DNA from: an uncultured Dongia sp.
GTDB lineage: Bacteria > Pseudomonadota > Alphaproteobacteria > Dongiales > Dongiaceae
DNA: 64,000 bases
NCBI RefSeq assembly: GCF_936916975.1
Contig: NZ_CAKZGO010000007.1
Coordinates: forward strand, 62,001-126,000
Direction: 5' to 3'
The notes beneath the pieces are model-generated. The model was not told the origin of the DNA and searched no databases. It worked only from the letters and a program-made list of their open reading frames with translations. Within the stretch, counting starts at the first letter, position 1. Every line of letters starts with the position of its first letter. Positions 1,396 to 62,165 of this stretch are shown in pieces. Both the position numbers and the translations under genes were made by a program.

Positions 1396-1511
1396 GCGCG
1401 CCGTTCAGCTCCCTCTTCTTTCAAGGAGAGGGTTGGGGTGGGTGCTGCCAGCGACATAAAGAGCCTTGCGCGCCATGACCTGCGACCCCAGTTCCGGCAC
1501 ATCCACGCTCA

Positions 1512-2342
1512 TCACCCCTTCCGCGCCTTCACCGAGAAACTGAGCGGCAAGTTGGGCTCGCCCGCCGGCATCCTGAACATCCGGTCCGGGCCCTCAACCA
1601 GTTTCGGCCACATCGCCCAGGCGAGGCTGTCATGTTCTTTGAAATATGTGAGCATCAGGCCTGCGTCCATCAGCGCGCTGAGGATGTCGCCGATGCCGTG
1701 TATGAATTCATGGGTGCGCGTGTTAGCGAGCTTGATGTCCTCGCCGGTATAAGTCGTGTCAGCATCGAAGATGAGGGGTGCTGCCTGGAAGTAGTCGAAG
1801 GTGGGCAGCAGCGGGCCGCTGGCCGTGCTGCCCGCGTCGCGGTCGGGCTGGTCGAGGGTGAAGGCAAACGGATGGCCTTCGAGGAGATAGAGCTCACCAC
1901 CGGGCTTCAGCATTGCCGCCACCACCTTGGCCCAGCCGCGGATGTCCGGCAGCCAGTTGATGGCGCCCCAGGTGACATAGGCGCGGTCGAAGCGCTCGGT
2001 GATGAGGGCAGGGGCGTCGTAAAGATTGCCCTCGACGAAGGTCGCTTTGATCCCGGCTTGTGCCGCGAGATCCCGCGCCGACGTGACGGCATTCTTTGAG
2101 AAATCGAGCCCGGTCACCGTGGCGCCGCGGCGTGCGAGAGCCAGCGTGTCGAGGCCGAAATGGCATTGCAGATGTACCAGCGACTTGCCGCGCAGATCGC
2201 CCACTTCGGCCGCTTCGATAGGGAGCAGGATGTCTTCGCCGGCGAGGAACTCGCGCACGCGGTAGAAGGGGGAGGCGACATGGATCGCCACCACCTCGTC
2301 CCAGCGCGCCTGGTTGATCGCGAAACTCTCCTGATGGCTCAT
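1512..2342 (-). CDS. Class I SAM-dependent methyltransferase
   Basis: A 276-residue cytosolic protein with a Rossmann methyltransferase core. Motif I is 'VHLQCHFGLDTLALARRG' (about residues 56-73), followed by the acidic end of strand 2 in 'VTGLDFSKNAV', then 'FDRAYVTWGAINWLPDI' and 'LKPGGELYLLEGHPF'. Motif I has H-x-G-x-D in place of the usual G-x-G-x-G, a variant seen in one branch of small-molecule methyltransferases. The substrate cannot be predicted. The gene is divergent from the GFA gene at 2415. Confidence 0.85.
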   Translation of the reverse strand: MSHQESFAINQARWDEVVAIHVASPFYRVREFLAGEDILLPIEAAEVGDLRGKSLVHLQCHFGLDTLALARRGATVTGLDFSKNAVTSARDLAAQAGIKATFVEGNLYDAPALITERFDRAYVTWGAINWLPDIRGWAKVVAAMLKPGGELYLLEGHPFAFTLDQPDRDAGSTASGPLLPTFDYFQAAPLIFDADTTYTGEDIKLANTRTHEFIHGIGDILSALMDAGLMLTYFKEHDSLAWAMWPKLVEGPDRMFRMPAGEPNLPLSFSVKARKG

Positions 2343-2414
2343 GACCCGTCTCCAATATTCCCTGGACCATTCCTAGCACGGCCACTAAAGCTCGCAAAAG
2401 AGGGGGAGGGACGT

Positions 2415-2804
2415 ATGCCGACATGTCAAGGTTCATGCCTGTGCGGGCAGGTCTCCTATGAAGTGGACCTGCCGTTCGAAACCTACGTGAACTGTCATTG
2501 CAGTCGCTGCCGCAAGGCTAACGGAAGTGCCCACGCGGCCAACGCCACGGTATTGCCGGCGGCATTCCGCTGGCTGCGCGGGGAGGTGGTGCGCTTCGAT
2601 CTGCCAGAAGCTCGGAGCTTCGCGGTCGCCTTCTGCCGGCATTGCGGCTCGCAGCAGCCGCACGCGACCCGCAGCGGCAGCCGCGTCATCGTACCAACCG
2701 GAACACTGGATACGGACCCGGGCGAGCATCCGACCAAGCACGTGTTCTGGTCGTCACGTGCGCTTTGGAGTGGCGCTCTAGCAGATCTGCCGAAGGTCGA
2801 TTGA
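2415..2804 (+). CDS. GFA (glutathione-dependent formaldehyde-activating-like) protein
   Basis: A 129-residue zinc-binding protein of the GFA/CENP-V fold. The metal ligands are visible: 'GSCLCGQVSYEV' (CxC, residues 6-8), 'CHCSRCRKANGSAHA' (CxxC, about 28-35) and 'CRHCGSQQP'. Family members bind glutathione adducts, but most have no proven reaction, and formaldehyde activation is only the historical name. The ATG at 2415 is preferred because it follows a strong AGGGGGAGGG ribosome-binding site and gives the normal family length; an in-frame upstream extension is not credible. Confidence 0.85.
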   Translation: MPTCQGSCLCGQVSYEVDLPFETYVNCHCSRCRKANGSAHAANATVLPAAFRWLRGEVVRFDLPEARSFAVAFCRHCGSQQPHATRSGSRVIVPTGTLDTDPGEHPTKHVFWSSRALWSGALADLPKVD

Positions 2805-2814
2805 GTTTAGGTTT

Positions 2815-3165
2815 CTACCCGCGCCAGTCCCGGCCGGTGATCTGCTTGGACCAGGAGTTCGACCACTTTCCCAGCGGTTCAAGCAACACAAAGAGCTGAT
2901 GACCCGTTGCTGTGGCCTGATAGCCACCCTCGGCGTGTTCAACGAGCACGGCCTCGCGCAATTCCTTCAAGCGGGCATTGAGCACTGTCGGCGAGATGCT
3001 CTCGCACCGGGTTTGCAAGTCGCGAAAGGTGCAGGGGCCGGCTTTGCACAAGGTCCACAGGACGCCCAGGCACCAACTGCGGCCAAGCAGATCGAACAGC
3101 GCCATGATGGGTTTGCCTGAGCGTGAGCCGCGGACCGGCGTGCCGGGGGTGGGGAAGGTGGCCAT
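2815..3165 (-). CDS. HxlR-family winged-helix transcriptional regulator
   Basis: A 116-residue DNA-binding protein. The HxlR signature is visible: 'LLGRSWCLGVLWTL' (about residues 26-39), 'GPCTFRDLQTRCESISPTVLNARLKEL' (recognition helices, about 43-69) and the wing 'VEHAEGGYQATATG'. HxlR proteins are dimeric repressors or activators that often respond to electrophiles or redox stress. The gene is divergent from an EamA transporter, and a 6-bp inverted repeat lies 18 bases upstream of its ATG. It probably controls itself and the transporter. Confidence 0.85.
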   Translation of the reverse strand: MATFPTPGTPVRGSRSGKPIMALFDLLGRSWCLGVLWTLCKAGPCTFRDLQTRCESISPTVLNARLKELREAVLVEHAEGGYQATATGHQLFVLLEPLGKWSNSWSKQITGRDWRG

Positions 3166-3182
3166 TCATTCTCCAATCTCAT

Positions 3183-3201
3183 TGCTACGTATAATGTAGC
3201 A
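3183..3201. promoter_or_regulatory. Inverted repeat, likely HxlR operator
   Basis: TGCTAC-N7-GTAGCA, a perfect 6-bp-arm inverted repeat in the HxlR/EamA divergent spacer. The AT-rich spacer itself contains TATAAT. It starts 18 bases upstream of the regulator's start codon, where autorepression would act. Confidence 0.45.
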
Positions 3202-3285
3202 TTTTTTCTTGCCTTACGCAAGCCGAGAGCTATTATTTCAGTAGCGGGTGGATTTGCCGCTACCACAACCATCGCCGAGGCCGGA

Positions 3286-4182
3286 ATGCCCCTTATCGCC
3301 GTGTCGGCCGCTCTCGCGGCATCCATGATCTGGGCGGCTGGCGCACTCTTGGCGCACAAGCCGGCAACCCTGATGGGACCGTTCGAGTTCACGCGGGTCA
3401 CTCTCATAAGCGCGGCGCTGCTGCTGGCATTGATCGTCACCTGGCAAGGCAATTGGGAAACAATCGCGTGGGATTTTTTGCCAAGCCTCGCGTTAAGCGG
3501 CCTGGTCGGCGTTCTCCTGTGCAATCTCTGTTTCGTCGTCTGCCTTAGACGTGGTGGCCCGCGCCGTGCGGAATTTCTCTTCGCCATGAACACGCCCATT
3601 GCCGCCATGCTGGGCTATGCGGTCCTGGGGGAGCAGCTTTCCCTGCTATCGATCGCTGGCGCCGCATTGGTCCTGGCCGGAATCGTCCTGGCCATTCTTC
3701 ATGGTCATAAGCCTGCCGCCGAAGATGCGCTGGAAATCATCACGGGATCGATCTGGCCGATGCTGTTCTTTGGTGTTCTGTCCGGCCTCTGTCAGGCGAT
3801 CGGCTTCATTGCCGCAAAGCCCGCCTTGCTCGCTGGCACCGACCCGCTGGCCGCATCCGCGATCCGCGTGATCATCAGTGCCGTGGCGCTGGTGGTTGTT
3901 GCGTTATGGCCGGCCAGAGCTTTCGCGCCGCTCACCCAGCCGAGCGGCGCCCTGGTGCTGCGCGCGATTCCACCTGGTGTCCTTGGTTATGTCGTAGCCT
4001 CGTCGCTGTTGCTTTATGCCCTTGCCAGCTACGACACCGGCGTGGTCGTCGTCCTTGGCTCGACCGTGCCGGTCATGATCCTTCCTATGATCTGGCTCCG
4101 CACACGCAACCGGCCGCCGCTCTTGGCCTGGGTCGGGGCAGCACTTGTCGTTGCCGGCACAGCCATGATCCTGCGCGCATAA
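3286..4182 (+). CDS. EamA/DMT-family membrane transporter
   Basis: A 298-residue inner-membrane protein with about ten hydrophobic helices in two EamA halves. The first half contains 'AASMIWAAGALLAHKP' and ends near 'LVLAGIVLAILHGHKP' (about residue 145). The second begins 'ITGSIWPMLFFGVLSGLCQAIGFIAAKPAL' and ends 'AWVGAALVVAGTAMILRA'. The family exports amino acids, metabolites or drugs, and the substrate cannot be assigned. It is divergent from the HxlR gene and presumably under its control; it is convergent with the GNAT gene, 4 bases away. Confidence 0.85.
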   Translation: MPLIAVSAALAASMIWAAGALLAHKPATLMGPFEFTRVTLISAALLLALIVTWQGNWETIAWDFLPSLALSGLVGVLLCNLCFVVCLRRGGPRRAEFLFAMNTPIAAMLGYAVLGEQLSLLSIAGAALVLAGIVLAILHGHKPAAEDALEIITGSIWPMLFFGVLSGLCQAIGFIAAKPALLAGTDPLAASAIRVIISAVALVVVALWPARAFAPLTQPSGALVLRAIPPGVLGYVVASSLLLYALASYDTGVVVVLGSTVPVMILPMIWLRTRNRPPLLAWVGAALVVAGTAMILRA

Positions 4183-4186
4183 CGCG

Positions 4187-4681
4187 TTACAGCTTGCGTT
4201 CGAACATCACTTCATAGGGCGTGAAGCCGGCCTTCGCATAGGCCTTGCAGGCGAGCTGGTTGGTGGCCAGGGCGTTGAGGCGGAGGCGCGTCAGACCCTG
4301 GTCGAGGCCGCGGAAATGATCGGCCAGCGCATCGAGCAGAATGCCTGCCAACCCGGTGCCTCTTTGTTCCGGCACGATGAAGATGTCGGAGACATAGGCG
4401 TAGCGCGTGGAATCCGCTGTCTCCATCGGCCAGGGTTCGTCGACCACATGGCCGGCGACCAGTCCGACACGCCGGCCATCTCGTTCGGCGATCAGCATCA
4501 CGCCGTGGGACTCCGCCAGGGTCGCGAACAGCATGGCGAGATAGTCCTTGGAATGTGGCAGGCCTGGCAGCCTGGTATCGCTCAGGGTCCGCTCATGCGT
4601 CTGCAGGGCGACCTCGCATTCGAGCACCCAATCGTAGTCAGCAGCCCGGTATGGTCGGAGCTGGAAGTCGGCGGTTTTCAT
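4187..4681 (-). CDS. GNAT-family N-acetyltransferase
   Basis: A 164-residue cytosolic acetyltransferase. The acetyl-CoA site is visible in 'AYVSDIFIVPEQRGTGLAGILLDALADHF' (Q/R-x-x-G-x-G/A, about residues 92-120). The C-terminal 'LRLNALATNQLACKAYAKAGFTPYEVMFERKL' is typical of the fold. The substrate is unknown. I use the ATG at 4681; the longer frame would need a TTG start at 4717 and adds residues unlike the family. Confidence 0.8.
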   Translation of the reverse strand: MKTADFQLRPYRAADYDWVLECEVALQTHERTLSDTRLPGLPHSKDYLAMLFATLAESHGVMLIAERDGRRVGLVAGHVVDEPWPMETADSTRYAYVSDIFIVPEQRGTGLAGILLDALADHFRGLDQGLTRLRLNALATNQLACKAYAKAGFTPYEVMFERKL

Positions 4682-4744
4682 GGCGCCGAGAGTGCCAGCG
4701 AAGTGCCCGATCGCCAAGCCGGCCCGCTACTATTCAATATTTTC

Positions 4745-4760
4745 CATAATATATATTATG
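4745..4760. promoter_or_regulatory. 16-bp perfect AT-rich palindrome
   Basis: CATAATATATATTATG is fully self-complementary. It lies in the 194-bp divergent spacer between the GNAT and diguanylate-cyclase genes, which is far more AT-rich than its surroundings. It could be an operator or simply part of AT-rich promoter DNA. Confidence 0.35.
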
Positions 4761-4875
4761 CGACTGACGGATATACAAAAACCCCACAGAAACGGGTCTT
4801 TCTTGGGCCTGTCCCGCCTCGGCCTATCGGTCCGCAGGCAATGAAATGTTAAAGATGTGGCCATAGATTGGGCGT

Positions 4876-6555
4876 ATGCGAAACGCGAGCGACGGCACGG
4901 CAAGACAGCGCAATTCAGCCCCGGCGAAAGTCAGCGAACTGCTCGCCCTGGCGGCTGCCGCGAAGAGTTCCGGCGATTACAAATCGGGCGCCCTGCACGC
5001 CCATGCCGCAGCCGACCTCGCCCGCGCGCAGGATGATCCGGCCAGCGAGGCCGTGGCCCTGCGGCTGCTCGCCGAACAGCAGATCTGCCTCGGCGATTAT
5101 GAGGCAGCTGTCAGTGCGGCCGAAGCCAGCCTCCTCATCTGCCTGAGCCTTGGTGACGACGCCGGGACCTCGCGGACCCTCAACGTCAAGGCTTTCGCCT
5201 TGATGGAGCTGGGACTCCATGAAGAGGCTCTCTCGGCCATGTCGACCAGTCTGGAGCTGGCGAGCAAGCTGCGCGACAACGAATTGCTGTACTGGGTCTA
5301 TAACCGGACCGGGACGATCCACGCGAATTTCGGAAATTTCCAGCAGGCGGACAAGTTCCTGCTCCATGCCAAATCCTTCGCCAACAACCTCGATGCCCAG
5401 GAAAAGTTCTGTATCCTCAACAATCTGGCCGACAATGCGGTTGGCTTGGTGACCCTGCTCCGCGACCGCAAGGATGACGCTGCGGCGGCCCAGGCGCTCA
5501 TACCCGGATTGCAGAACGGTTGGGATGCGCTGGCCTTGGCGCAGGAGGCCCGCCACCCCTATCGGCAAGCAATCTCGCTCAGCAATCTTGGGCGCTTGTT
5601 GACCTTGAACAGGGAGTACGACCGGGCACTGAGCTACCTCGCTGAATCGCGGGCGATTGCGGTCCAGCACGGCTACCGATCGCTTGAACTCGATGCGATC
5701 CTGGGTGCAGCACTGGTCCAGGAAGCGGAAGGCCATTTCGATGCGGCGGTCGCGGAGCTTTCCGCCATCCTCCGATCAGCGATCGACGTGGGCGAAAAGC
5801 CGGTCATTTTGCGCACGCTGAAGGCGCTCTCCAAGGCCCATCAGGAGGCTGGCGATTTCCGCGCGGCACTTGACTATTTCAAGCAGTATCACGATCTGGA
5901 AAGCGAAATTAAGTCCGCCATTGCCGATACCCGCGCACGGCTTCTGGCCGGGCATCTCGATCTCGAGGAAGCACGGCAGGAAGTCGAACAGCATCGTCAG
6001 CGCAGCAGCGAGCTCGAGGCTGAGAAGCTGGCGCTGCAGCGGCGCGCCAGCGATCTCGACCGGCAGGCCCATCAGGACAAGCTCACCGGGTTATGGAACA
6101 GGCGGCATGTCGAGGCGGAGTTTCCCGGCCTCCTCGCCGCTGCACTGGCGAGTGGTTCCGCACTTTGCGTCGCATTGGGTGACATCGACTTTTTCAAGAC
6201 GGTCAACGATCGCCACGGCCATCCGATCGGCGACGCCGTGCTGCGCGAAGTGGCGACGATCCTGAAACATAGCAGCCGCCCAACCGACCTGGTTGCCCGT
6301 TGGGGTGGCGAGGAATTCCTCCTCATTTTCACCCGTGCCACGCCGGAGGCGGCGCAACAGGTATGCGAGCGGATGCGGTTGGCGATCGCAGGGCACGACT
6401 GGTCGCACCTTGCGGCCGGCCTTGCTGTCACCATCAGCTTCGGCCTCAGCGATCTCCGTAAAGCCGATACCTATGAGGCGTTGCTGGCGGCGGCTGATGC
6501 CCAGCTTTACGCAGCCAAGCAGAACGGTCGGAACCGCGTCGAGCCGTCGACCTGA
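4876..6555 (+). CDS. TPR-repeat diguanylate cyclase (GGDEF)
   Basis: A 559-residue soluble protein. Residues about 15-360 are tetratricopeptide-like helical repeats, e.g. 'AVALRLLAEQQICLGDYEAAVSAAEASL' cut into typical TPR pairs. Residues about 365-410 form a charged coiled coil. Residues about 415-559 are a GGDEF domain with the catalytic motif GGEEF at 477-481. The inhibitory I-site RxxD (RPTD, 468-471) is intact, so it should make cyclic-di-GMP from two GTP under product feedback. There is no membrane segment or signal peptide, so activity is presumably controlled by TPR-bound partners or peptides. Confidence 0.9.
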   Translation: MRNASDGTARQRNSAPAKVSELLALAAAAKSSGDYKSGALHAHAAADLARAQDDPASEAVALRLLAEQQICLGDYEAAVSAAEASLLICLSLGDDAGTSRTLNVKAFALMELGLHEEALSAMSTSLELASKLRDNELLYWVYNRTGTIHANFGNFQQADKFLLHAKSFANNLDAQEKFCILNNLADNAVGLVTLLRDRKDDAAAAQALIPGLQNGWDALALAQEARHPYRQAISLSNLGRLLTLNREYDRALSYLAESRAIAVQHGYRSLELDAILGAALVQEAEGHFDAAVAELSAILRSAIDVGEKPVILRTLKALSKAHQEAGDFRAALDYFKQYHDLESEIKSAIADTRARLLAGHLDLEEARQEVEQHRQRSSELEAEKLALQRRASDLDRQAHQDKLTGLWNRRHVEAEFPGLLAAALASGSALCVALGDIDFFKTVNDRHGHPIGDAVLREVATILKHSSRPTDLVARWGGEEFLLIFTRATPEAAQQVCERMRLAIAGHDWSHLAAGLAVTISFGLSDLRKADTYEALLAAADAQLYAAKQNGRNRVEPST

Positions 6556-39502: not shown

Positions 39503-39539
39503 CAATAAAACGGGCGGCCACTCGTTCATGTGGCCGCCC
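39503..39539 (-). terminator. Rho-independent terminator of the GMC operon
   Basis: A perfect 10-bp stem GGGCGGCCAC/GTGGCCGCCC with an 8-base loop. On the minus strand it is followed by GTTTTATTG, a short T-rich tract. It lies 35 bases after the GMC stop codon. Confidence 0.85.
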
Positions 39540-39573
39540 AAGGTTCAGGTCTTCGGTCGTTCTCCTTGGGGCC

Positions 39574-41145
39574 TCAGATTTCCTTTTTCTGCATCTGGTC
39601 GGCGATGAACTCCGCCTGGCGGATGGCCAGCGCCACGATGGTGAGGGTCGGGTTCTCCGCCCCGCCGGTGGTGAACTGGCTGCCATCGGAGACGAACAGG
39701 TTTTTGATGTCGTGGGTCTGGCCATGCTTGTTGACGACGCCGTCCTTGGCCTCGGCGCTCATCCGGTTGGTGCCGAGATTATGCGTCGAGGGATAAGGCG
39801 GTGTGCGCAGCGTACGCTTGGCGCCAACGGCGTCATAGAGCGCGCTGCCTCGGCCGAAGGCATGCTCGCGCATGGCGACGTCGTTGGGATGGTCGTCGAA
39901 ATGCACGTTCGGGATCGGCAGGCCGTATGAGTCCTTCTCGCTGGCATGGAGTGTGATGCGGTTGGTCTCCTGCGGCATGTCCTCGCCCACCAGCCACATG
40001 CCGGCCATATGGTCATAACCTTCCATGGCGCTGGAGAAGCTCTTGCCCCATCCGCCGGGATCGAGGAAGGCCGCCATGAACGGAATGCCCAGGGACAGCG
40101 TCTCCATTTCATAGCCACCGACAAAGCCGCGCTTGGTATCAAGCTTGGCTTCATCGCGCACGATCCCGGCCATGGTGGTGCCGCGATACATGTGCACCGG
40201 CTTGTCGAAGATGGCGTAGACCGAGCCTGTCATGTGGCGCATGTAGTTCTTGCCGACCTGGCCCGATGAATTGGCCAGGCCATCCGGGAACATGGCCGAT
40301 GCTGAGTTGAGCAATAGTCGCGGGCTCTCGATCGAATTGCCGGCGACGCAGACGACACGTGCCTTCTGCACATGCTGCTTGCCATCCTTATCGGCATAGA
40401 GGACACCGGTCACCAACCCCTTGTCGTTGTGCTGGACCTGCAGCACCTGGGAATTGGGCCGCACTTCGAGATGGCCGGTCTCCTCGCCTTTCGGAATCTC
40501 CGTATAGAGCGTCGACCATTTCGCACCGGATTTGCAGCCCTGGAAGCAGAAGCCGATCTGCTGGCAGGAACCACGGTTGTCGCGTGGCACCGAATTGATC
40601 GCCATGTTGCCCGTATGAAAGTCGGTGTAGCCGAGCTTCTTGGCGCCGGCTGCCAGGACCTTGTAGTTGTTGTTGCCGGGCAAACGCGGGATGCCATGGG
40701 TGCCGGTGACGCCCATCTTGTCCTCGGCGCGGTCGTAAAAGGGTTCCATCTCCGCCAGGGTGATCGGCCAGTCGAGGAGGTTGGCGCCGGCGAGTTCTCC
40801 ATAGGTGGTCTTGGTCTTGAATTCATGCTCCTGGAACCGGAGCGAGGCTCCGGCCCAATGCACCGTCGAGCCACCCACCGCCTTCACGATCCAGGCCGGC
40901 AGCCCGGCGAAATCCTTGGCGACGCGCCAACTGCCCGACGTGGTGCGCTTGTCGAGCCAGGAGATCTGGCTGAAGCTGCCCCATTCGTCGTTGACGAAAT
41001 CCTCAATCTCGTGCCGGGCGCCAGCTTCGAGTACCACGACATTGACACCCTTCTGCGCCAATTCATTGGCGACCGTGCCGCCGCCGGCACCAGAACCCAC
41101 CACGACAACGACGCTGGAATCATTGAGTTCGAATTTACTTGCCAT
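39574..41145 (-). CDS. GMC-family FAD oxidoreductase (gluconate/sorbitol dehydrogenase-like)
   Basis: A 523-residue flavoprotein. The FAD motif is 'VVVGSGAGGGTVANELAQKG' (about residues 14-33), with 'VGGSTVHWAGASLRF' (about 90-104) also typical. The C-terminal GMC domain has 'STHNLGTNRM' (catalytic His) and 'TTGGAENPTLTIVALAIR' (active-site Asn). It has no signal peptide and is encoded 17 bases after a Tat-signal subunit-3-like protein, so the complex is probably co-exported. No cytochrome subunit gene is adjacent. The substrate is a sugar, sugar acid or alcohol of unknown identity. Confidence 0.9.
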   Translation of the reverse strand: MASKFELNDSSVVVVVGSGAGGGTVANELAQKGVNVVVLEAGARHEIEDFVNDEWGSFSQISWLDKRTTSGSWRVAKDFAGLPAWIVKAVGGSTVHWAGASLRFQEHEFKTKTTYGELAGANLLDWPITLAEMEPFYDRAEDKMGVTGTHGIPRLPGNNNYKVLAAGAKKLGYTDFHTGNMAINSVPRDNRGSCQQIGFCFQGCKSGAKWSTLYTEIPKGEETGHLEVRPNSQVLQVQHNDKGLVTGVLYADKDGKQHVQKARVVCVAGNSIESPRLLLNSASAMFPDGLANSSGQVGKNYMRHMTGSVYAIFDKPVHMYRGTTMAGIVRDEAKLDTKRGFVGGYEMETLSLGIPFMAAFLDPGGWGKSFSSAMEGYDHMAGMWLVGEDMPQETNRITLHASEKDSYGLPIPNVHFDDHPNDVAMREHAFGRGSALYDAVGAKRTLRTPPYPSTHNLGTNRMSAEAKDGVVNKHGQTHDIKNLFVSDGSQFTTGGAENPTLTIVALAIRQAEFIADQMQKKEI

Positions 41146-41162
41146 GAGTCAGTCCCTCCCCT

Positions 41163-41684
41163 TCACGCCTGGTCCGGCCAGGTGATTTCGTCGAAGCCGC
41201 GATGGAGATAGCCACCGAGTTCGGCGGAGGCGCCCTCATAGCCATAGATCTTCCAGACATCGGGGTTGTTGTAGATGCCGGTGACGCATTCGCCGCGCAC
41301 CGTCTGGAAGAACGGGGTGGTGTCGATGGTCTTCAGTGCGGCCTCGCGCGCATCGGCATTGAGGTCGTCCCATTTGCCGGCCTTCAACTCGGCGACACCG
41401 GCTTGCAGCATGGTCTTCATGGCCGGATCCTTGGCCGCCTTTTCATCTAGTGTCGCGACGACTTTGGCGTAGATCGCATCGTCGAGTTTTTCATGGGGAT
41501 AAAGTGCCCGGGTCATTTCGACCAGGGTCGCTGCCTCTGCGGTCGTAACGGCCTGCGGTGCGATCGCCCAGGCGGCGTTGGGCCCGATCAGGATGCCACC
41601 GGCGGTGGCGAGCATGGCAGATCCGGCGACGACGGCGGACGTGCCGGCCAGGAAATCCCGGCGGTTCAGTTTGGCTTGCCTCAT
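41163..41684 (-). CDS. Gluconate 2-dehydrogenase subunit 3-family protein, Tat-exported
   Basis: A 173-residue small subunit. The twin-arginine signal is 'LNRRDFLAGTSAVVAGSAML' (about residues 6-25) with cleavage near 'AWAIAP'. The mature part has 'MTRALYPHEKLDDAIYAKVV' and 'GECVTGIYNNPDVWKIYGY', typical of subunit 3, whose role is Tat targeting and assembly of the GMC flavoprotein. GGGAGGG precedes the ATG at 41684. It is the first gene of the two-gene operon ended by the terminator at 39503. Confidence 0.88.
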   Translation of the reverse strand: MRQAKLNRRDFLAGTSAVVAGSAMLATAGGILIGPNAAWAIAPQAVTTAEAATLVEMTRALYPHEKLDDAIYAKVVATLDEKAAKDPAMKTMLQAGVAELKAGKWDDLNADAREAALKTIDTTPFFQTVRGECVTGIYNNPDVWKIYGYEGASAELGGYLHRGFDEITWPDQA

Positions 41685-41768
41685 TTGCTTCCCTCCCAAG
41701 GGTTGATGCCGCGTTTTCGCGGTCATGCGTCGATTGGCGTGGCTATGAGTGCGGGTCTCGGTGCTGCG

Positions 41769-42164
41769 TCAGCGATAGCGTCCGTGGCGCTGCAGGACTT
41801 CGATCTTGTATCCGTCAGGATCGAGCACGAAAAAGAACTTGGCCATCAAGGCGCCGTCGCGGTGGAATTCCTTGACTGGCAGCGGATTGAGATTCAAATC
41901 GGTGAAGCGCTTGTGCTCCTGGTCGAGATTGTCGACCGCGACCGCGACATGACCATAACCGTCGCCATGGGTATAGGGCTCGGCGCGACCCTTGTTCCAG
42001 GTCAGCTCGATCTCGAAATCGTTTTCCGGGTTGCGCAGATAGACCAGCGAGAAATCGTCAAAATCGTAGCGGTCCGCCGGCTTCAGCGCAAAAGCGCGGT
42101 CATAAAAGGACAGGGCCGCGTCGAGATCGCGCACCCTGATCATGGTGTGAATCGCTTTGGCCAT
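41769..42164 (-). CDS. Glyoxalase I-like VOC protein
   Basis: A 131-residue VOC-fold protein similar to lactoylglutathione lyase (GloA). It has two beta-alpha-beta modules, 'IHTMIRVRDLDAALSFYDRAF' in two pieces (His at residue 6) and 'GYGHVAVAVDNLDQEHKRF', plus glutamates in 'FEIELTWN' and 'YKIEVLQRHGRY', giving the H/E...H/E metal set of GloA. It would isomerise the methylglyoxal-glutathione hemithioacetal; other substrates are possible. It is monocistronic. Confidence 0.85.
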   Translation of the reverse strand: MAKAIHTMIRVRDLDAALSFYDRAFALKPADRYDFDDFSLVYLRNPENDFEIELTWNKGRAEPYTHGDGYGHVAVAVDNLDQEHKRFTDLNLNPLPVKEFHRDGALMAKFFFVLDPDGYKIEVLQRHGRYR

Positions 42165-42248
42165 CCATGCCTCGGTCGTTGTTGTTGACCGAGAGTCTAG
42201 GACCGCCGTTCCGGCGCCGGGTGTTAACCGATTACTACGCTGACAAGG

Positions 42249-42626
42249 TCACGATGCGACGGCGCGGAGTTCCTTTTCCGCCGGAATGCGGTTCGCAGGA
42301 GCGGCAGTGATATCGGGCGTTCCGATACCCATATTCTGCTTGGCCTGCGCCACCGGCTGGTGGCCCTGCTGGCGTTCGATGTGAACGGCGCAGGTGACCC
42401 GCAGCAGCGACGTGAAATTGCCGACCTCGCCGCGCCGCTCAAGCACCTCGCCATAAAGCGTGCTGATGAAGCGGGGGGTGGACATGCCCTCCTGCTCAGC
42501 GATCTGGTCCAGGATCGACCAGAACAGAGCCTCCAGGCGGATGCTGGTGCTGAAGCCGTCGAGCCGGACCGAGCGGGTCACGGTGCGGTAAATGTCTGGA
42601 TCCTGGCTTGCGAAAACCTGGCACAT
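42249..42626 (-). CDS. Ribbon-helix-helix (RHH_4-like) domain protein
   Basis: A 125-residue protein starting MCQVFASQDP. The segment 'YRTVTRSVRLDGFSTSIRLEALFW'-type sequence followed by 'LDQIAEQEGMSTPRFISTLYGEV' matches the RHH_4 family of alphaproteobacteria, a beta strand plus two helices that may bind DNA. The tail from about residue 85 is Gln/Pro/Ala-rich and probably disordered. The ATG at 42626 follows GGGAGAA; the longer upstream frame is not credible. Function unknown, possibly a transcriptional regulator. Confidence 0.75.
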   Translation of the reverse strand: MCQVFASQDPDIYRTVTRSVRLDGFSTSIRLEALFWSILDQIAEQEGMSTPRFISTLYGEVLERRGEVGNFTSLLRVTCAVHIERQQGHQPVAQAKQNMGIGTPDITAAPANRIPAEKELRAVAS

Positions 42627-42894
42627 GGCGTTTCTCCCATTCGAGCCTGTTTGCTGGCCCCCCGTTGGCTCGGGTGACCTTCGTGGCGGGGCCAATTCTG
42701 GCTCCTCACCGGCGGCTTTCATGCCGCGAATCCAATCTAAACCCCTTGTCAGGCAGCGCAATCGCTTCCTGGAAAATTAGCCAAAAGGTGGGTTTCCGCC
42801 ACCGGCATGTCGGTCAAGAAAGCTGTCCTGTCTCATTTGCTTGATTTGCGGCGGCAGGATCGATAAGCACCTCCCATTGCGCTTCTGTGCGTGG

Positions 42895-42984
42895 GGAAGG
42901 GTGGCCGAGTGGTTTAAGGCTCCAGTCTTGAAAACTGGCGTGGGTGTAAGCTCACCGTGGGTTCGAATCCCACCCCTTCCGCCA
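42895..42984 (+). tRNA. tRNA-Ser (UGA anticodon)
   Basis: A 90-base class II tRNA with encoded CCA. The acceptor stem pairs GGAAGGG with CCCTTCC, followed by discriminator G and CCA (42981-42984). The anticodon stem CCAGT/ACTGG encloses loop CTTGAAA with anticodon TGA at 42929-42931. The long variable arm GCGTGGGTGTAAGCTCACC and the T-loop GTTCGAATC are present. The D-arm has GGCCGAGTGGTTTAAGGC. It is the likely insertion landmark for the low-GC Shedu-like gene that follows. Confidence 0.97.
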
Positions 42985-43019
42985 AAGACCCTTCAGGTTT
43001 CCTCATGGAGACGTACCGC

Positions 43020-44306
43020 ATGGCCTGCGACATCGCATTTTTGGGTTTCGCGGATAAGTCATTGATGAACCCGACGACCACAAAGCTCAATCTCGTTGGG
43101 TTGAGTCCGATCTTGGCTACGTACATCTTTCCGTTCGACCTCAATGGGCGCTTCATGGTCCTTGCGATACGTGGCGTGCCGACAGACCCGGTGAAGCTCA
43201 CTTTTGTATGGTCAAGTGGAGAGGTACTTGGGTCTTTTACACTAGAGCCTGAGGGTGAAGTTCGAGAAGTGAGCGATACCCAGTTTTCGCCGTGGACGAT
43301 GATGCCGATTCCGCTATCGATCAAGAGTCTGCCAGTTGACCACCCGGGAGAGGCTATCTTAAAGCAGACATTGCCCGACGGATCAGAGGTAAACATCGGT
43401 CTTTGCGAATTTGTGCAAGCCGAGGGCGAGGAATATTCAGAGCCCTTTCTTGCTGCCTTGAAACTCGATCCGCGGTCAACAAAGCTAGTGCGAATTGTTC
43501 TGCATTGTAAATCGTGCCTTGACCGAGTGGGCGCATATGTTGGAATAGAGCGTAATCCTGAATTAGAGGCGTCGGGCTTCTATTGGTTCAGGGACTTACC
43601 AGACAAGTTCCACTGTGGCTGCGGTCGATTTTCTCCCGACCTGACATCGATCAAGCGGAATCTTCACGTCTATCTAAAGGCGTCCTCTTTCAGTGACGGA
43701 CTGTTCGTAGCCGAGCCGGCGTACCTTCCAGAAGACATCAAACGAATTTCGACATCTTTTCGGCAGTTGTTGGACAGCGATCCTAGAGAGGAAGTTGTTC
43801 AGCAGTTTATCGAACATGAACCTCTCCTTCTGCATCAAATTCCCGCCAAGAAGATGTGGGTCAAGCCACCAGTACTAACGAAATACAAGTGCGACTTCGC
43901 AATTTTGACACCACAAAAGATTCTATATCTCATCGAGATCGAGGCGCCGTCGCGGAGATTGCTTGTGAAGGGCGGCGATAGGGCGGGCGATCTCAATCAT
44001 GCAATCGATCAGGTTACTGATTGGCTGCATCATGCAAACGAGCATCGCGGTGCATTTCTCGATGGACTCGGTCTGAGCAAGGACGACGTTGCCAACATTG
44101 AAGGTGTCGTGGTTATGGGGAGAGACGGACCCTATGACGCAGAGCGCCTTCGCAAACTGAAAGGCACTACATTGGGCGCTAAATTGATTACGTACGATGA
44201 TCTCCTAGAGAGCATAGATCTGTTGTCTACATCTCTCATGCGCGCTCCATCTGTGGAGTTTTTGGGCTACGGATCGCCTAGTGGTCGTTTGTCGGGTAGC
44301 GCGTGA
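43020..44306 (+). CDS. Shedu-like (DUF4263) nuclease, putative anti-phage defence protein
   Basis: A 428-residue protein. The C-terminal part (about 255-395) resembles the Shedu SduA/DUF4263 nuclease: helix 'EEVVQQFIEHEPLLLHQ', then Asp292 in 'KYKCDFAIL', Glu306/Glu308 in 'YLIEIEAPS', and 'GDLNHAIDQVTDWLHH', a PD-(D/E)xK arrangement. Residues about 1-135 resemble a beta-rich sensor domain (DUF6941-like pattern). Residues 163-201 hold a CxxC...CxC set, probably a zinc site. GC is visibly lower than neighbours, and it starts 35 bases after tRNA-Ser. ATG 43020 has GGAG upstream; ATG 43005 is the alternative. The defence role is inferred from family membership. Confidence 0.75.
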   Translation: MACDIAFLGFADKSLMNPTTTKLNLVGLSPILATYIFPFDLNGRFMVLAIRGVPTDPVKLTFVWSSGEVLGSFTLEPEGEVREVSDTQFSPWTMMPIPLSIKSLPVDHPGEAILKQTLPDGSEVNIGLCEFVQAEGEEYSEPFLAALKLDPRSTKLVRIVLHCKSCLDRVGAYVGIERNPELEASGFYWFRDLPDKFHCGCGRFSPDLTSIKRNLHVYLKASSFSDGLFVAEPAYLPEDIKRISTSFRQLLDSDPREEVVQQFIEHEPLLLHQIPAKKMWVKPPVLTKYKCDFAILTPQKILYLIEIEAPSRRLLVKGGDRAGDLNHAIDQVTDWLHHANEHRGAFLDGLGLSKDDVANIEGVVVMGRDGPYDAERLRKLKGTTLGAKLITYDDLLESIDLLSTSLMRAPSVEFLGYGSPSGRLSGSA

Positions 44307-44479
44307 GCACGTTAATCTTTGAATCATCGTTTCGAGGCAACGCCCTTGTTGAACGAGACTTCGAATTTACTCGGATGCTGCCAAACCGGAATGGCCGTCC
44401 GGTGGTTGTCGACGGCTATTGTATGCCCAAGTTAGGGTCGGCGTGGCCATTCCAGTTCATCGCCACAGTGGCCGCATGA
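44303..44479 (+). CDS. 58-residue ORF translationally coupled to the Shedu-like gene
   Basis: This frame opens with GTG overlapping the TGA of the Shedu-like gene by 4 bases (GTGA) and closes at 44479. The product begins [10 protein letters not shown] and ends QFIATVAA, with '[19 protein letters not shown]' near the C-terminus. It has no recognisable domain, signal peptide or membrane segment. Base composition is like that of the Shedu-like gene at its start and nearer the host toward its end. It may be a small accessory protein, or a truncated remnant of a larger partner gene. Confidence 0.35.
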
Positions 44480-44501
44480 AATTCACACGAAAGGATCAGC
44501 A

Positions 44502-45332
44502 ATGAGCACTGTCACTACGACGGACGGGACGAGCATCTTCTACAAGGATTGGGGTCCGCGCGACGCGCAGCCGATCGTCTTCCATCACGGCTGGCCGCTC
44601 AGTGCCGACGACTGGGATAACCAGATGCTGTTCTTCCTGGCGCAGGGCTATCGGGTGATTGCGCATGACCGCCGCGGGCACGGTCGTTCCAGCCAGACCG
44701 CAACCGGTCACGAAATGGACACTTATGCCGCCGACGTCGCGGCGCTGGCGGACGCGCTGGATCTGAAAGGCGCCGTTCATATCGGGCACTCGACCGGCGG
44801 CGGTGAGGTTGCGCACTACGTTGCACGCGCCAAGCCGGGTCGCGTCGCGAAGGCGGTGCTGGTCGGCGCGGTGCCGCCGGTCATGGTCAAATCGGCCAGC
44901 AATCCCGGCGGCCTGCCGATCGACGTTTTTGATGGCTTGCGCACGGCCCTCGTCGCCAATCGCGCGCAGTTCTACATCGACGTACCGACAGGTCCGTTCT
45001 ACGGCTTCAACCGGCCTGGCGCCAAAATCTCGCAGGGGCTGATCGACAATTGGTGGCGGCAGGGCATGATGGGGGCGGCCAACGCCCATTACGAATGCAT
45101 CAAGGCGTTCTCCGAGACCGACTTCACGGAGGACCTCAAGAAGATCAACGTCCCGGTCCTCGTGGCCCACGGCACCGACGATCAGATTGTCCCCTATGCG
45201 GATTCAGCGCCGTTGGCGGTCAAGCTGCTGAAGCACGGCACCCTGAAGACCTATGACGGGCTCCCTCACGGCATGTTGTCGACCCATCCGGAGGTTCTCA
45301 ATCCCGACATTCTTGCTTTCATAAAAGGATAA
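44502..45332 (+). CDS. Alpha/beta hydrolase (chloroperoxidase/arylesterase-like)
   Basis: A 276-residue alpha/beta-hydrolase of the cofactor-free haloperoxidase group. The catalytic triad is visible: nucleophile Ser in '[14 protein letters not shown]' (about residue 96), Asp in '[12 protein letters not shown]' (about 227), and His in '[14 protein letters not shown]' (about 256). The oxyanion region is '[16 protein letters not shown]'. Such enzymes hydrolyse esters and can form peracids; the natural substrate is unknown. AAAGGA precedes the ATG. GC content is again that of the host. Confidence 0.9.
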
Positions 45333-45648: not shown

Positions 45649-46551
45649 CTACGGGGCTACATTGCCTTGCGCTACGTCTGTCATGACCCAGTTGCGTAGA
45701 ACGGCAACCTCGGGCCGGTTATCGGCACCGGTCGGACAGACGAGATAGTAGCGCAGACCCTCAAGGATCGGACCAAAGGGCTGCACGAGTGCGCCGGAGG
45801 CTAGCTCCTCGGCCACGAGCGAAAGGCTGAGCAGTGCAACGCCCTGCCCTGCGATGGCCGCCTGGATGGCGCTGTTCTCGTCATTGAAGGTAATGCCACC
45901 GTCGGGGTCCAATCCGTTGACGGCCGCCTGCGCCTGCCACGATGCCCAGGCGGGGACGCTGATCTTGCTCGCCATCGGTCCCCAGTCGAAATGAATGAGC
46001 GTCGCGCCGACGAGGTCTGCTGGCTTTTGGATGGTGAGACGCGGGCTGCAAACCGGCGCGAAATTGTCGGCGAGCAAGGGTAGCGCGGTGAGGCCGGCAT
46101 AGTGTCCGAGGCCATAACGGATGGCGGCGTCCGCTTCGCGCGCCTCAAGGTCGACCAGATCATCGGTCGCGTGCAACCGCAGATCCCAACCTGGATTGAG
46201 AGCGCGGAAATGGGCGACGCGGGGCACCAGGATTTTGGCCGTGAAGGCGACGGTCGCCGACAACGTCGCCACTTGGCGCTGCGGGCGCTGCCTGAGCGCG
46301 TCAATGGCAGTCGCCATGCCGTCCAGCGCCTGGCGCATCGCCGGATAGAGCGCCCTGCCCGCCTCGGTCAGCATGACCCGGCGCGTCTGGCGCACGAACA
46401 AAGCGACACCCAACCCCTCCTCCAACTGGCGGATCTGGTGGCTGATGGCGGTTGGCGTTACGCCCAGTTCGGCGGCGGCGCGCTTGAAGCTTTCCTGGCG
46501 TGCGGCGGCCTCGAAAGCGCGCAAGGCTCCCAACGGCGGCAGCTGGCGCAT
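45649..46551 (-). CDS. LysR-family transcriptional regulator (GcvA-like)
   Basis: A 300-residue LysR regulator starting MRQLPPLGALRAFEAAAR. The helix-turn-helix is 'FKRAAAELGVTPTAISHQIR' (about residues 22-41), followed by 'LFVRQTRRVMLTEAGRALYP'. The effector domain begins 'ATLSATVAFTAKILVPRV'. It is divergent from sugE, and the spacer carries a 7-bp-arm inverted repeat plus a repeated ATCATCTAT, both suited to LysR binding, so sugE is the likely target. ATG 46551 has GAGGA upstream; the longer frame would need TTG. Confidence 0.9.
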   Translation of the reverse strand: MRQLPPLGALRAFEAAARQESFKRAAAELGVTPTAISHQIRQLEEGLGVALFVRQTRRVMLTEAGRALYPAMRQALDGMATAIDALRQRPQRQVATLSATVAFTAKILVPRVAHFRALNPGWDLRLHATDDLVDLEAREADAAIRYGLGHYAGLTALPLLADNFAPVCSPRLTIQKPADLVGATLIHFDWGPMASKISVPAWASWQAQAAVNGLDPDGGITFNDENSAIQAAIAGQGVALLSLSLVAEELASGALVQPFGPILEGLRYYLVCPTGADNRPEVAVLRNWVMTDVAQGNVAP

Positions 46552-61316: not shown

Positions 61317-62165
61317 ATGCCCTACCGTCTGATGCTATCGCTGATTGCTGTTCTTTGCATGCTGGCGCCGATGGCGCAGGCGCAGACCAGCCCAGTCGAT
61401 CCCGGTTCCGCGGCCTTCATGAGCGGCAACTACGCCTTGGCTCTGCAGGAGTGGTCGACGAAGGCGCAAACCGGCGATGCCGAGGCGATGAACAACATCG
61501 GCATCCTTTACAATAAAGGTCTCGGCGTCGAGCAGGATGAAGCCATGGCTGCGAGCTGGTATCGGCGTGCCGCCGAAATCGGCTTTGCCAATGCGCAGTT
61601 CAATCTTGCCAATCTCTATTACTCAGGCAATGGGGTCGAACGCGATCTCAAGCAGTCGGCCGGCTGGTATCACGAGGCGGCCAAACGCGGTCATCTGGGC
61701 GCCCAATACTTCCTCGGCCTGATGTATGAGGATGGCGAGGGTGTGCCGGAAGACAAGATGGAAGCGCTGAAATGGATCGTGAAAGCGGCCGATGGCGGCA
61801 ATGCCGCCGCCCAATACGAAGTCGGCCGCATGCTGGTGGGTGGCGACGGTCTGCAAGCTGATCCGGTCAAGGGCGCGGAATACACCTTGAAAGCGGCCCA
61901 TGCCGGCAACGCGAAGGCAGCGCTGCTGATGGCCCAACTCTATGCCGCCGGCAATGGCGCGGAGCAGAACGATCTGGAAGCTTATGTTTGGGCGCGGATC
62001 GCCACCGAACGCCTGAAGCCAGGGCAGGATTCGAAGAAGGCCTATGATCTGGTTGAAGAGCTGGAGGCGCGCCTCGAGGAAGGTGCGGTGAAGGCGGCCG
62101 AACGCGTCATACAAATCCGCAATCCGAAACCGGAAAGCAAAGAGGGTGAGCCCGCGCCGCAATAA
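61317..62165 (+). CDS. Exported Sel1-repeat (TPR-like) protein
   Basis: A 282-residue secreted or periplasmic protein with a signal peptide (cleavage after 'PMAQA', about residue 22). It has five or six Sel1-like repeats, recognisable by 'AMNNIGILYNKGLGVEQD', 'AQFNLANLYYSGNGVERD', 'AQYFLGLMYEDGEGVPED', 'AQYEVGRMLVGGDGLQAD' and 'ALLMAQLYAAGNGAEQ' (residues about 60-220). The tail is helical and charged. Such proteins scaffold protein interactions, often in envelope processes. GGAG lies 10 bases before the ATG at 61317. Confidence 0.88.
   Translation: MPYRLMLSLIAVLCMLAPMAQAQTSPVDPGSAAFMSGNYALALQEWSTKAQTGDAEAMNNIGILYNKGLGVEQDEAMAASWYRRAAEIGFANAQFNLANLYYSGNGVERDLKQSAGWYHEAAKRGHLGAQYFLGLMYEDGEGVPEDKMEALKWIVKAADGGNAAAQYEVGRMLVGGDGLQADPVKGAEYTLKAAHAGNAKAALLMAQLYAAGNGAEQNDLEAYVWARIATERLKPGQDSKKAYDLVEELEARLEEGAVKAAERVIQIRNPKPESKEGEPAPQ

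Follow-up and report, generated by a model that had tools for sequence, protein, structure and literature searches.

What is the product of a gene of comparatively low guanine-plus-cytosine (GC) content that lies directly behind a transfer RNA gene in an uncultured Dongia sp., and how did this gene come to be there? The locus is found on contig NZ_CAKZGO010000007.1 of assembly GCF_936916975.1, in a stretch of 64,000 nucleotides (positions 62,001 to 126,000; hereafter the window). It begins 35 nt (42985-43019) after a tRNA-Ser(TGA) identified by ARAGORN, and its GC content is 51.0% (55.0% at third codon positions), against 61.1% for the window and 62.6% (79.4% at third codon positions) for the next gene. 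An earlier note, made from the letters of the window without database searches, had remarked on both this position and this composition and had read the C-terminal third of the product as a Shedu-type nuclease; on all these points our analysis agrees. Judged by its sequence, the product (coordinates in Table 1) is a member of the DUF4263 (Shedu/SduA) family that falls in a branch with an ExE active site, outside the characterized ExK branch. We believe it to be, most likely, a single-gene, horizontally acquired anti-phage nuclease, and give this reading, with the mechanism proposed below, a probability of about 0.6.

The family assignment comes from the C-terminal part of the protein. Residues 256-396 match the SduA_C/DUF4263 model (PF14082) with an E-value of 2.6e-17 and 63.9 bits (cut-off 27), and 11 PADLOC SduA models also match, each starting at or beyond residue 231. 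In the structure model, residues 233-408 align with the solved Escherichia coli and Bacillus cereus SduA proteins (EcSduA and BcSduA); D292 and E306 coincide with the D and E of BcSduA, as is characteristic of the PD-(D/E)xK superfamily fold, and D292, E306, E308 and Q331 are invariant in all eight of the divergent, ExE-type DUF4263 domains aligned. The nuclease is preceded in the same open frame by 235 residues, for which a regulatory role is predicted; this single-gene, type I layout is kept in the homologues.

The front half is another matter. It is absent from the PADLOC SduA models and lies outside the region (residues 233-408) listed as aligned with the SduA proteins of E. coli and B. 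cereus, and residues 1-250 match no model in Pfam or NCBIfam, in keeping with the suggestion of the earlier note that the architecture differs from that of classical Shedu. As far as sequence and structure model can tell, it is a conserved architecture composed of a predicted beta-sandwich followed by a C4 (four-cysteine) zinc-ribbon-like domain. The CxxC...CxC cluster that the note had placed at residues 163-201 proved to be conserved: C163, C166, C199 and C201 are invariant in the five proteins aligned and form a two-knuckle arrangement (CxxC plus CxC) that would be expected to bind zinc. The model of this part has a mean predicted local distance difference test score of 86-95 over residues 140-219, with the CxxC in a turn between two predicted strands, and a helix (residues 237-252) joins the ribbon to the nuclease. 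The DNA pattern of the zinc motif occurs once in the window and in none of 100 shuffles.

Relatives of this front half were sought by scanning two collections, genome_contigs and viral_contigs, with a degenerate nucleotide pattern that codes for W-x3-[hydrophobic]-x-D-x-F-x-C-x-C-G. Four of the 21 stretches found in genome_contigs encode relatives, a number that is a lower bound because the pattern demands exact motif spacing; the frames of the remaining 17 were judged by eye to be unrelated, and the single match in viral_contigs was due to chance. The relatives come from metagenome-assembled genomes of a Methylococcaceae bacterium (L025, 426 amino acids), a member of the Pseudomonadales (L023, 430 amino acids), a member of the Cellvibrionaceae (L024, 258 amino acids, ended by the contig edge) and a Peregrinibacteria bacterium (L017, an open frame of 341 amino acids with a TAA stop ahead of most of the sandwich part). 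The first 235 residues of the window protein match L025 with an E-value of 9e-28 and L023 with 2e-28; the zinc part of L017 gives 4e-21, and the sandwich by itself matches L023 at 2e-9. Seven neighbouring proteins of three homologues were scanned with PADLOC, and defence genes adjoin two of the three: a CBASS cyclase and a 2TM effector in L023, and a type IIG restriction enzyme and a Cas4-like gene in L017. The L023 locus (1450-6208) has the look of a compact defence island, the homologue standing about 0.6 kb before the CBASS cyclase, the 2TM effector and a DEDDh-like gene. Since Gammaproteobacteria as well as a bacterium of the candidate phyla radiation carry homologues, the assay of a single member would inform a widely scattered group.

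In published work, Shedu proteins are described as a core nuclease to which varied N-terminal regulators are joined, sensors of DNA ends among them (PMC12137116, PMC12409362, PMC12904381). Among the window protein and its homologues, conservation is lowest in the sandwich (16-34% in pairwise comparison), intermediate in the zinc part (28-39%) and highest in the nuclease (30-46%), an order that suits a fast-evolving recognition surface linked by way of a conserved zinc module to a nuclease. From this order and the published Shedu plan we infer that the protein is an immune nuclease restrained by autoinhibition and equipped to sense infection. The C-terminal PD-(D/E)xK-type domain would be the cutting core, kept inactive until a sign of infection reaches the N-terminal half; the beta-sandwich, as the fastest-changing part, would be the likely recognition surface; the zinc ribbon would most likely touch a nucleic acid end or single strand, or else relay the signal; and the core, once triggered, would cut phage DNA. 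Zinc binding, autoinhibition, trigger, DNA cutting and phage defence are all predictions of this scheme.

Several observations weigh against it. A phmmer search of the PDB with the protein alone recovered no Shedu chain but only repeat-driven TPR matches (best E 5.1e-5), which we rejected as the sum of eight identical repeats worth some 2 bits apiece. No clear fold match in the PDB was found for the zinc domain. A Pfam scan of the eight immediate neighbours in the window, to which PADLOC was not applied, revealed no defence gene, and the sole L025 neighbour scanned had no PADLOC match. Moreover, when aligned with a profile of eight nuclease domains BcSduA and EcSduA show D...ExK where the window protein shows D...ExE, and the change K557A abolishes the defence activity of the Vibrio cholerae protein VcSduA (PMC12137116). 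The lysine of the ExK motif in BcSduA and EcSduA is thus replaced by E308, which places the window protein outside the branch to which these two and VcSduA belong. Here the earlier note needs amendment: its account of the DUF4263 domain, the distinct front half and the cysteine cluster stands, and the positions it gave for Asp292, Glu306 and Glu308 are correct and invariant, but it missed that the last of these occupies the place of the lysine.

Given that the protein falls in the ExE branch, its activity as a nuclease cannot be taken for granted, and one may suppose that the domain has retained its fold with catalysis lost or altered and now acts in DNA binding or regulation. The glutamate in the place of the catalytic lysine would suit this supposition, as would the tree, which separates the ExE from the ExK domains with a support of 97/99. 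However, the invariance of all four active-site residues over eight divergent ExE domains is what one expects of a site still in use, and BamHI cleaves DNA using an ExE site; we regard the loss of nuclease function as quite unlikely. The tree was built from 17 rows (22 aligned rows minus five under 120 amino acids), and in it the four zinc-ribbon proteins with a nuclease domain group together at 93/91, just below the program's mark for strong support. Among all domains collected, 13 rows have ExE and six ExK, a set that is biased because many rows were retrieved by searches with the window protein. Bias is smaller in a Pfam search of a sample of 385 genomes from the class to which the window belongs; it gave nine places over the cut-off, of which five are ExE (L001, L082, L083, L084 and L087) and four ExK (L078-L081). 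The literature searched yielded nothing on replacement of the lysine in PD-(D/E)XK enzymes.

The ExE branch without the catalytic lysine (L082, L083, L003/L087, L007/L084, L010, L036, L037, L039) includes several short proteins of about 190-250 amino acids with little or no N-terminal domain. In another genome of the same class (G275), the locus L085 has an open frame of 683 amino acids whose DUF4263-like end carries EIK (SduA_C 25.1, below the cut-off) and whose N-terminus appears ATPase-like by eye, so that it resembles the VcSduA type.

The earlier note had proposed a comparison of the locus in close relatives, a universal gene being an argument against its interpretation. A DUF4263 gene with this front half occurs in one of seven genomes of the genus and hence is not universal; outside the genus, in 17 genomes of the family and order, 385 of the class and 398 of the phylum, the front half found no match save two by chance. 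The congener G004 carries two other DUF4263 genes only, with different front halves: L079 679-1998 (ExK, a frame of 440 amino acids) and L003 976-2010 (ExE, 344 amino acids). With such patchiness, which extends across phyla, and with its low GC content, the gene is very improbable as a housekeeping DNA-repair nuclease that recognizes aberrant ends.

The tRNA offers a clue to its arrival. In the congener G002, DNA similar at 84% to window positions 39513-42984 ends on the last base of the tRNA, and a tyrosine integrase (Phage_int_M, 7e-30) begins 160 nt past the same tRNA; the contig ends there, and the G002 contig C189 does not reveal the right-hand boundary. The other five congeners keep the tRNA-Ser, with differing content behind it; the window backbone resumes at 45738 in G005, 47280 in G003, 48606 in G006 and 50703 in G004, and its resumption was not seen within the stretch compared in G001. 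Because of the G002 integrase and this differing content, the tRNA-Ser(TGA) site (window 42895-42984; L071 5404-6429) resembles an integration hotspot in the genus. The DUF4263 gene was probably acquired horizontally. Only its position hints that an integrase inserted it, since neither mark of an integrative element, a flanking integrase or a duplicated tRNA end (att), was found: the Pfam scan of the window neighbours revealed no integrase, and in the genome, at 2 mismatches, copies of the 20-base tail were seen only in tRNA-like sites.

The gene could then serve not the cell but a mobile element residing at the tRNA-Ser, by excluding competing elements or plasmids. Its place at the tRNA 3' end, the nearby integrase of G002, the low GC content and the variable content of the site in congeners are all compatible with this, but the lack of an integrase in the scanned neighbourhood, the restriction of second copies of the tRNA 3' end to tRNA-like sites and the position of L023 beside chromosome-type defence genes speak against it, and we consider it unlikely.

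How new, then, is the proposed anti-phage nuclease? The general idea is not, because Shedu nucleases with diverse regulatory N-termini have already been published. With B. cereus SduA (PDB 8ti8, 8ti9) the window protein shares the DUF4263 core, the D and first E of the site and the layout of a single gene with an N-terminal half; it differs in having ExE instead of ExK, and the N-terminal half of 8ti8 was not aligned to its model. E. coli SduA (PDB 8ps4, 8ps5), a DNA-end sensing type I Shedu, also has ExK, and its alignment is limited to residues 233-408; its N-terminal clamp binds DNA ends (PMC12904381), and a clamp of this kind is not seen in the window protein. The V. cholerae protein (type I-D, with a GHKL ATPase) likewise couples DUF4263 to an unusual N-terminal regulator, but it has an ATPase domain where the window protein has a beta-sandwich and zinc ribbon, and it needs K557 (PMC12137116).

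Two further resemblances concern the front half. The sandwich of three of the four homologues is weakly similar to DUF6941 (PF22091; E-values of 0.0025 for L023, 0.0053 for L025 and 0.011 for L024, at 16.6-18.6 bits, everywhere below the cut-off of 27), whereas the window protein has no match; the literature searched holds no paper on this domain. The C-terminal zinc region of vertebrate MCM10 (2kwq) has a W..F.C.CG spacing like that of the zinc part and is the best PDB profile match, but with E-values of 0.74 and 0.18 it is not significant and it is absent among the fold matches listed, so that it is a lead only. Gu et al. (2025) reportedly sort the N-termini into several classes with dozens of types, and a beta-sandwich plus zinc type may be among them. 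Within the accessible portions of the literature, searches for Shedu with zinc or a zinc ribbon and for DUF6941 showed no description of this front half. The kind of system is therefore known, and the combination of front half and ExE site is, as far as the searches reach, undescribed and at most a variant.

A bolder proposal, which we think less likely than not, is that the ExE proteins of DUF4263 form a class of immune nucleases of their own whose active site has no lysine. The window protein would then head a cross-phylum group gated by a beta-sandwich receptor and C4 zinc ribbon, and both trigger chemistry and input would differ from those known for the Shedu enzymes of E. coli, B. cereus and V. 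cholerae. If the protein is active, DUF4263 immune nucleases can work without the lysine that the characterized members need, and a zinc-ribbon and beta-sandwich module joins the Shedu triggers. Many genomes are labelled "Shedu" on DUF4263 alone, and whether ExE proteins cut DNA affects how such labels should be read.

Other searches for the front half added no relatives. Peptide-pattern scans gave 12 stretches in genome_contigs and 1 and 28 in viral_contigs, none confirmed; single-sequence tblastn of plasmids and phages found no true relative, PHROGs had no convincing match, and in two more classes (78 and 369 genomes) profile A1 met nothing but nuclease domains. Weak matches rejected were a dipeptidase-like open reading frame on the opposite strand (L005), two glutathione-synthetase-like loci (L012, L013) and one overlapping a polyhydroxyalkanoate-synthase-like frame (L077), all named by eye, together with L008 and L009, which were dismissed after inspection.

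Table 1. Features of the tRNA-Ser locus, in window coordinates
Feature	Position	Strand	Evidence
tRNA-Ser (anticodon TGA)	42895..42984	+	ARAGORN; putative integration boundary at 3' end (match to congener G002 stops at 42984, integrase then in G002)
Shedu-family (DUF4263) gene, 428 amino acids + stop	43020..44306	+	open frame, SduA_C match, homologues
Predicted N-terminal beta-sandwich, about residues 1-136, weakly DUF6941-like in homologues	43020..43427	+	
C4 zinc-ribbon-like domain, about residues 154-220, C163/C166/C199/C201	43479..43679	+	cysteines invariant 5/5; structure model
PD-(D/E)xK-type nuclease domain, residues 236-409; D292, E306, E308, Q331	43725..44246	+	

The plus-strand frame is open over 42957-44306. 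The start chosen is preceded by a GGAG at 43007-43010 with a spacing of 9 nt and coincides in the alignment with the beginning of the homologues; another possible start is the ATG upstream at 43005. A search of 42780-44560 for sigma-70-like promoters and for terminators gave none of either, against averages of 1.0 and 1.6 in shuffled sequences, and as the gap behind the tRNA is so short, the gene may be transcribed by read-through from the tRNA promoter. Its neighbours in the window, as identified with Pfam, are RHH, glyoxalase, hydrolase, LysR, SMR and PAS genes.
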